Of a stretch of 64,000 bases of DNA, positions 21,560 to 24,780 are shown piece after piece. How positions within the stretch are numbered: position 1 is the first letter of the stretch; each line of letters begins with the position of its first letter. The notes beneath the pieces were generated by a model. The model saw only the letters and a program-made list of their open reading frames with translations. It did not search any database and was not told the origin of the DNA. The stretch comes from Acidimicrobiales bacterium. Its GTDB lineage: Bacteria > Actinomycetota > Acidimicrobiia > Acidimicrobiales > Iamiaceae. The stretch is taken from NCBI GenBank assembly GCA_035547835.1, contig DASZTW010000017.1:186001-250000 (forward strand), read 5' to 3'. The translations under genes were made by a program, and so were the position numbers.

Positions 21560-21597
21560 GCTCGCGGGGACCGGGCTGACCCGACGCTCATTGCTGG
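21560..21597. repeat. 38-bp direct repeat, copy 1
   Basis: Identical to 21634-21671, offset by 74 bases. On the minus strand each copy begins with the last codons and stop of a frame ending in two glutamines. Confidence 0.9.
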
Positions 21598-21633: not shown

Positions 21634-21671
21634 GCTCGCGGGGACCGGGCTGACCCGACGCTCATTGCTGG
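21634..21671. repeat. 38-bp direct repeat, copy 2
   Basis: The second copy, covering the stop and 3-prime flank of the DUF2510 gene at 21662-22090. Confidence 0.9.
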
Positions 21672-22090: not shown

Positions 22091-22168
22091 CTCGCCCGCT
22101 CCCCTTCGATCGCCCGCGGACCCGGCAGCCCGCCGGACTACCCACGAACGCTACTGCTCGCCCCGCCC

Positions 22169-22225
22169 CAACCGTTCTGGGCTGCTTTCTACGCGCTGGG
22201 ACGCGTAATTCTCAGCCCAGAACGG
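22169..22225. repeat. 57-bp palindromic element, copy 1
   Basis: Terminal inverted arms CCGTTCTGGGCTG / CAGCCCAGAACGG and an inner arm TACGCG / CGCGTA. Identical over 57 bases to 22961-23017. This copy is just downstream of the acetyltransferase stop. Confidence 0.95.
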
Positions 22226-22851: not shown

Positions 22852-22960
22852 CCCGTCAGCGTGCCAGAGCGACTCCCGCCGGCCCCACCCGCCGGCCCCG
22901 CCCGCCGACCCCACCCCCTCGGCCCCGCCCGCCGGCCCCACCCCCTCCGTGGCCGGCATC

Positions 22961-23017
22961 CAACCGTTCTGGGCTGCTTTCTACGCGCTGGGACGCGTAA
23001 TTCTCAGCCCAGAACGG
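22961..23017. repeat. 57-bp palindromic element, copy 2
   Basis: Identical to 22169-22225. It lies between the acetyltransferase start and a headless gene fragment, and so sits at a probable break point. Confidence 0.95.
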
Positions 23018-24112: not shown

Positions 24113-24553
24113 TCAGCTGGCGGCGGGGCAGGCGCCTTCGGGTTGCCAGTCGCGGCCCATGAGGCGCTTGGCGAGCACGCCGGCCATGCGCTGTGCGTGG
24201 CGCTTCGCCCGCGCCGCGGTGGGGCCGGCGAACTCCTTGTCGATGCTGGCTTCCCACAGCTCGAGCCAGCGGGCGAACCAGGCGCTGGCGAACGGCTCGA
24301 TGCCGTCGACGCGCTCGTGGGCGCCGAGGAAGTAGCCGTCGTAGCCGCGCTCGCCGAGCAGCACGCGGCACCAGTAGTCGATGAGCTTGGGGATGTGGGT
24401 CGGCCAGTCGACTTCGGCGATCTCGTCGAACACGGGCCCGAGCACGTCGTCGAACACGATCTCTCGATAGAAGTCGACGACCACGTCGTGGATCTTCGCC
24501 CGCGTGTCGAGGTCGCCGCGGGTGGCTGCGTCGGTTGAGATTGGCGTGGTCAC
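24113..24553 (-). CDS. Truncated haemoglobin (group III type)
   Basis: A 146-residue 2-over-2 globin that binds O2 or NO. VVDFYREIVFDDVLGPVF covers helices A-B, WPTHIPKLIDYWCRVLLGE covers helices C-E, and H-E-R-V-D in GAHERVDGI is the usual proximal-side F helix region of the group. The GTG at 24553 is preferred because GGAGGG lies 8 bases upstream; a TTG 18 bases further up is possible. A 26-bp palindrome sits directly upstream, so the gene is probably controlled by a dedicated repressor or an NO/redox sensor. Confidence 0.88.
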   Translation of the reverse strand: MTTPISTDAATRGDLDTRAKIHDVVVDFYREIVFDDVLGPVFDEIAEVDWPTHIPKLIDYWCRVLLGERGYDGYFLGAHERVDGIEPFASAWFARWLELWEASIDKEFAGPTAARAKRHAQRMAGVLAKRLMGRDWQPEGACPAAS

Positions 24554-24571
24554 CGCGACCCGTCCCTCCAA

Positions 24572-24597
24572 ATATTTCCGGTCGATACCAGAAATAT
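24572..24597 (-). promoter_or_regulatory. Operator-like palindrome ahead of the truncated haemoglobin gene
   Basis: ATATTTCCGGT, four bases, ACCAGAAATAT: 11-bp half-sites with one mismatch, in an A/T-rich island within otherwise 70 percent GC DNA. It ends 19 bases before the GTG start and abuts the ribosome site, so a bound protein would block the promoter. The regulator is unknown. Confidence 0.65.
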
Positions 24598-24780
24598 AGC
24601 GCCCGGTGCGACCCTCCGCACGCCGATCACGATCGCGCTGCGGTCGCTGGCGAACGCGTAGGTCTTGGCGCCGTCAGGGGTCTCGGCGCCGAGCCCGACG
24701 GAGGCGGGCGGCACGGCGCTCCAGCCGCCCTCGGTCGTGGCGGGGGCGACGCTGGACGACGTCGTCGCAGAGCGACGCGG
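24598..24780 (-). other. Possible gene remnant
   Basis: On the minus strand one frame reads VAPATTEGGWSAVP, then TYAFASDRSAIVIGVRR, which looks protein-like but has no start, no domain I recognise, and runs into the globin promoter. It may be the decayed end of a lost gene or chance. The repeat A copy 4 follows. Confidence 0.25.

Follow-up and report, generated by a model that had tools for sequence, protein, structure and literature searches.

A conserved palindrome before a truncated haemoglobin gene of Acidimicrobiales, a probable operator of an ArsR-type regulator with three invariant cysteines

The function of SufR (Rv1460) from Mycobacterium tuberculosis depends on three cysteines, C203, C216 and C244, according to the part of the report available (PMC6034842). 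The [4Fe-4S] form of SufR is described, in partial texts, as a repressor of suf that is relieved by NO (PMC10848736, PMC9045647), and low iron also derepresses suf via SufR (PMC10848736). The accessible portion of the work on Corynebacterium ArnR describes a MarR/ArsR-like winged helix protein with C179, C193, C223, a conserved histidine and a [4Fe-4S] cluster; NO abolishes its DNA binding, and narKGHJI and hmp are repressed by it (PMC12343034). A haloarchaeal denitrification motif, CGAAYATDKTYG, is reported in the excerpt available from promoters of cyanoglobin, DUF2249 and denitrification genes (PMC11218638).

Here we describe a 26-bp palindrome that precedes a truncated haemoglobin gene in a genome of the Acidimicrobiales. 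The window analysed is a stretch of 64,000 nucleotides. Sequence comparisons indicate that a DNA-binding protein very probably lands on the palindrome; in this bacterial group that protein seems to control NO defence and Fe-S repair genes together, this globin included. The literature searched, which covers few subscription papers, contains no description of this motif or regulon.

The palindrome and the globin gene behind it

The palindrome occupies positions 24572-24597 and reads ATATTTCCGGT-CGAT-ACCAGAAATAT. It is an 11-4-11 inverted repeat with arms complementary at 10 of 11 positions, which bears out the sequence-only reading of a palindrome with one arm mismatch ahead of a globin gene. 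On the strand of the globin (minus) the element is ATATTTCTGGT-ATCG-ACCGGAAATAT, with the arm farther from the gene at 24587-24597 and the nearer arm at 24572-24582, followed by 18 nt and the GTG start at 24553. The 18 nt include GGAGGG (24564-24569, minus strand), the probable ribosome-binding site. A TATATT hexamer (24593-24598, minus strand), recognized by eye only, overlaps the far arm and may be a -10 element; a consensus scan for promoters and terminators returned no promoter-like site and no terminator.

The gene (24113-24553, minus strand) encodes a 146-residue protein assigned to the group III truncated haemoglobins on the basis of solved-structure similarity and conserved haem-pocket residues. 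The best match of known structure is 2ig3 (E = 1.5e-9), itself a truncated haemoglobin of group III. Residues F28, Y29 and H79, which we take to be B9, B10 and F8, do not vary among 19 aligned sequences. The protein has no match in Pfam or NCBIfam. One scan of named genomes returned nine relatives of this globin, eight from Acidimicrobiia or groups within it (Microthrixaceae are presumed to belong to this class) and one labeled simply as Actinomycetota. A winged-helix regulator with C-terminal cysteines is encoded directly upstream of the globin in two relatives (L002 and L005), and a palindrome of equal layout lies just before the globin in L004 and L005.

Palindromy by itself is unremarkable in this GC-rich window. 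There are four 11-4-11 palindromes with at least 10 of 11 matches in the 64 kb, versus a mean of 2.6 in 60 pair-shuffled windows. The element is 65% AT in a window that is 70% GC, and among the palindromes listed with gaps of 0-8 it alone has an AT content of at least 60% (shuffled mean for such palindromes, 0.0). A search of all 3,699,771 bases of the genome for the palindrome pattern, with three mismatches allowed, gave one place, versus none in the backward control, so there is no near copy elsewhere at this distance. The motif pattern derived below likewise matched only the window site at three mismatches, with one match in its backward control also, and a core-only pattern with one mismatch carried no signal at such looseness (40 places versus 83 in the backward control). 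Three loci with core-only matches (L029, L030 and L031) had nothing convincing nearby, an AT-rich stretch in L030 scored 15.2 bits but its reversed control scored 19.2, and the surroundings of a paralogous regulator (L032) were also unconvincing. The palindrome is meaningful because it is conserved in relatives and not because of its symmetry.

The window contains other repeats. An imperfect palindrome of 58 nt is present in two identical copies (22168-22225 and 22960-23017) and is apparently a dispersed REP-like repeat, whose 24-nt core has 34 genome matches within three mismatches versus none in the backward control, with some head-to-head pairs 30 bp apart. A 38-nt direct repeat with a spacing of 74 is present in identical form at 21560-21597 and 21634-21671.

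The conserved motif and its genes

A palindromic matrix seeded with three sites and refined by iteration converged on WTWnTTCTAGT-N4-ACTAGAAnWAW. Of 60 loci, 47 had a best site above 14 bits, versus 0 of 300 shuffled loci; the matrix was trained on these loci, and one site may be counted for both the globin locus and the regulator locus of a genome. A scan of 51 stretches totalling 628 kb gave 93 sites above 12 bits versus 2 in the reversed sequence; in this set L005 and L093 are apparently one locus, and L102 and L103 have one site in common. Circularity was lessened by leave-one-locus-out scoring, which gave 82 sites above 16 bits versus 1 reversed (41 loci, 475 kb), and by an unsupervised count of inverted 5-mers. 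TCTAG-N6-CTAGA led this count: of 83 upstream regions, 8 contained it, where 0.0 were expected. The runners-up reached 6 regions, and the most frequent dyad in each of 20 shuffles reached 3 to 5. The spacing is fixed: the 4-nt gap alone was enriched (80 matches above 18 bits versus at most 5 at any other gap from 0 to 10), as scored with a matrix built from gap-4 sites, and a direct-repeat arrangement gave at most 4 such matches. No site above 12 bits was detected in the scanned stretches of L006-L008 and L131.

A matrix of 76 sites from other genomes was used to score the window genome. The window palindrome received 28.9 bits, whereas the next match in the 64 kb had 4.8 and the reversed maximum was 8.2. 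The sequence-only reading had named the lack of a second copy, together with no response to NO, O2 or metals, as evidence against its proposal; a weaker site at 20.1 bits lies between a second globin gene and sufB in the same genome (next in its stretch, 9.0), and relatives contain many more. A sequence model of the same 76 sites, run over the 3.70 Mb, returned the window palindrome as the sole match at E ≤ 10, once per strand (E = 0.96 and 1.33), which ranks it first in the genome but is not significant alone. The globin 2/sufB site was not reported in this genome-wide search at E ≤ 10. A strict pattern matched 6 of 396 genomes of the phylum, with backward-control matches in 9, and thus is by itself not enriched across the phylum. 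When the sequence model was applied to 10 chosen whole genomes, matches at E ≤ 1 were present in 7 and fell at 17 distinct places. Eight of the 17 are outside the training stretches, and six of these eight are at the same kinds of gene: five adjoin (tblastn) genes for globin 2/sufB, DUF2249 (two), ferredoxin-hemerythrin and nitrite-reductase-like proteins, and one is at aceE-like and NuoF-like frames identified by eye. The remaining two had no recognized gene.

Sites above 14 bits within 500 bp upstream were found for 31 of 41 regulator genes, where the 41 include L005 and L093, apparently one locus and both without a site, for 11 of 16 genes of the second globin type (globin 2), for 4 of 5 sufB genes and for 13 of 26 relatives of the group III globin (globin 3). 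The other 13 of these 26 have no site within 500 bp, and some sit behind another gene. Targets were assigned by codon-bias picks, and some loci are still misassigned. The site-bearing genes include RIC (Fe-S repair; TIGR03652 over its cut-off in both proteins tested) and one case of narG (L130; 19.3-bit site, TIGR01580 at 1607 bits). A copper nitrite-reductase-like protein scored 160 bits against a cut-off of 296, and a NuoF-like protein was also below its family cut-off. Further targets are hemerythrin-DUF2249 and DUF2249 proteins, an AhpC-type peroxiredoxin, aceE and a ferredoxin-hemerythrin protein. In one genome (G484) the regulator gene (53%) and the RIC gene (44%) have a site between them, and another site, of 26.1 bits, precedes the regulator; in a different genome (G385) a site precedes a hemerythrin-DUF2249 gene (62%). 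Strict-pattern matches in G168 and G386 had no explaining context.

Some arrangements stand on their own. A genome of the same family has five sites in about 20 kb (G061:C15:15387-35923; L145, L155, L161, L160 and L159), located at globin 2/sufB, aceE-like/NuoF-like, DUF2249, globin 3 and peroxiredoxin-regulator genes, which places the regulon largely in one region. In L135 three motif matches follow in a row at 1501-1591 (28.7, 29.1 and 22.4 bits; about 33 bp apart), and no target gene was recognized in the 1.7 kb examined. A protein family of about 440-480 residues recurs near DUF2249 genes and sites (L100:8645-9967, minus strand; L161; L157). It is membrane-protein-like, and the L100 member had no Pfam or NCBIfam match at E ≤ 0.001.

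The linked regulator

The window genome encodes an orthologue of the L005 regulator with 64% identity (G000:C8:28507-29160, minus strand). The gene is directly behind that of the second truncated globin (Bac_globin, 22.3 bits; cut-off, 21) and divergent from sufB-sufC and a SufD-like frame recognized by eye. Between globin 2 and sufB is ATATTTGTAGCGAACAGCGGAGAAAT, the weaker copy of the motif, with poorly symmetric arms. Both Pfam HTH_20 (41.3 bits) and HTH_5 (33.2 bits) exceed their cut-offs, which identifies an ArsR-type winged helix. The predicted structure has a pLDDT of 91.9. In this predicted model, residues 2-99 align with the ArsR protein 6j05_B (Z = 13.8, rmsd 2.6, 89 aligned), and residues 90-221 were set beside Bet3/TRAPP-type chains (2cfh_D; Z = 11.8, rmsd 3.6, 129 aligned). 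The matches listed in these comparisons included no solved SufR or ArnR.

Residues C170, C184, C216 and H187 of the regulator are invariant in 41 of 41 sequences. A paralogue (L016) and the distant regulator of L004 also have the three cysteines, which hence mark a wider family and are not diagnostic. The loci of the L016 paralogue and of L017, both distant regulators from the same genome, had no site (best scores, -3.5 and -4.8 bits). Among 298 genomes of the order, a globin match at E ≤ 0.001 occurred in 35 and a regulator match in 239, with the regulator reaching at least 150 bits in 52. A regulator of at least 150 bits is present in each of the 16 genomes whose globin is close to the window type (at least 130 bits), versus 52 of 298 overall (hypergeometric 8e-14), and in 23 of the 35 globin genomes (hypergeometric 6e-12); these p-values are too small because the genomes share ancestry.

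The winged helix, the three C-terminal cysteines and the link to suf are common to this protein and to Rv1460 as described in the texts available. In its own genome the regulator and globin 2 face sufB with the 20.1-bit site between them; most regulator genes of relatives are not beside sufB. The NCBIfam SufR equivalog model (TIGR02702) gives the regulator 25 bits, over the HTH part only, versus the 178.8 required, and the predicted targets differ from those of SufR by reaching globins, RIC, DUF2249 and narG. SufR operators have the forms ACACT-N5-TGTGA and CAAC-N6-GTTG, and the motif found here is unlike both. The winged helix, three cysteines and a conserved histidine also agree with ArnR as taken from its published description, with cysteine spacings of 14 and 30 in ArnR and 14 and 32 here; unlike the present regulator, ArnR is given no suf link in the available part of its report (PMC12343034). 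The regulator has a cysteine pattern like those of SufR and ArnR and a predicted target set that combines both. NsrR is, in the partial descriptions available, likewise an Fe-S NO-sensing repressor of NO detoxification genes, but it belongs to another protein family. The haloarchaeal motif differs in sequence and is archaeal, and its authors favor bacterio-opsin activator-like regulators in the portion available (PMC11218638).

Competing explanations and a proposed mechanism

That the palindrome is the operator of the linked ArsR-type regulator is proposed with high confidence from the conserved motif, its placement before genes and its link to the regulator gene. That the palindrome arose by chance and has no function is disfavored and extremely unlikely: similar palindromes are indeed common in the window and the genome has no second copy within three mismatches, but the element matches a held-out 26-bp motif that is conserved before homologous genes and stands far above the next score in 64 kb. 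Binding by an Rrf2 (NsrR) or Crp/Fnr protein is very improbable. The sequence-only reading had suggested NO-type control through Rrf2 or Crp/Fnr-type proteins, at a palindrome that fits no familiar consensus, and the genome does have two Rrf2 proteins over the Pfam cut-off, but neither of their loci has a site (best held-out scores, 1.7 and 0.6 bits) and the motif-linked regulator is ArsR-type, with an Rrf2 score of 18.2 against a cut-off of 30. The NO half of that suggestion fares better, with globins, RIC, hemerythrins, narG and suf all found behind sites. Some other regulator with a similar operator, such as a GntR/YtrA-type protein, is a very improbable owner of the site. Two other genomes of the phylum, G508 and G547 (L137 and L138, 1501-1526), have a near-identical palindrome directly before small GntR-like genes identified by eye. 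This suggests that a regulator unrelated to the present one uses a similar operator there, possibly by convergence; however, the GntR-like protein has only five weak matches in the window genome, the best of them showing 39% over 80 residues within a frame of 523 residues, and the motif precedes the majority of the ArsR-type regulator genes.

The nature of the signal is a separate matter. The regulator is likely a cluster-based sensor by analogy with SufR and ArnR. An NO-type signal is favored because globins, RIC, hemerythrins, narG and suf fit control by NO or Fe-S stress, and NO as the main signal is reasonably probable. A tentative alternative retains the operator and the regulator and makes the signal mainly something other than NO; the protein would then be the SufR of these bacteria, reporting Fe-S demand, iron or O2, and the globins would protect the cluster machinery. 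The position of the regulator opposite sufB in the window genome and the high share of sufB genes with a site agree with this alternative, as does the derepression of suf by low iron through SufR in the available account from M. tuberculosis (PMC10848736), whereas most other targets (RIC, narG, nitrite-reductase-like, DUF2249 and globin genes) point to nitrogen oxides.

The preferred reading, which we consider probable as a whole, is an operator of a three-cysteine ArsR-type Fe-S repressor that would be released by NO or by other loss of the cluster. In unstressed cells a cluster-bearing dimer of the regulator would occupy the palindrome and block the globin gene; the site abuts the ribosome-binding site, in the region expected to contain the promoter or the start of the transcript. 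NO or other cluster loss would release the DNA and turn the globin on. In the window genome this would at the same time induce globin 2, the suf operon and the regulator's own gene, and in relatives the response would extend to RIC, to hemerythrin/DUF2249 proteins and to nitrate and nitrite-reductase-like genes.

A broader proposal, held with slightly more belief than doubt, is that one SufR/ArnR-like Fe-S repressor serves as the general NO regulator of this bacterial class in an NsrR-like role. Through a single operator, undescribed in the literature searched, it would couple NO removal by two truncated globins, RIC repair, suf assembly and nitrate/nitrite respiration, and the window palindrome would be a strong site. 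If this is true, the response to NO and Fe-S stress in a widespread, little cultivated class would acquire an operator, its regulator and a set of target genes, and the suf machinery would share a regulon with group III truncated globins and with DUF2249/hemerythrin proteins. One regulator would then join the known separate roles of SufR in cluster assembly and of ArnR in nitrate respiration and NO removal.
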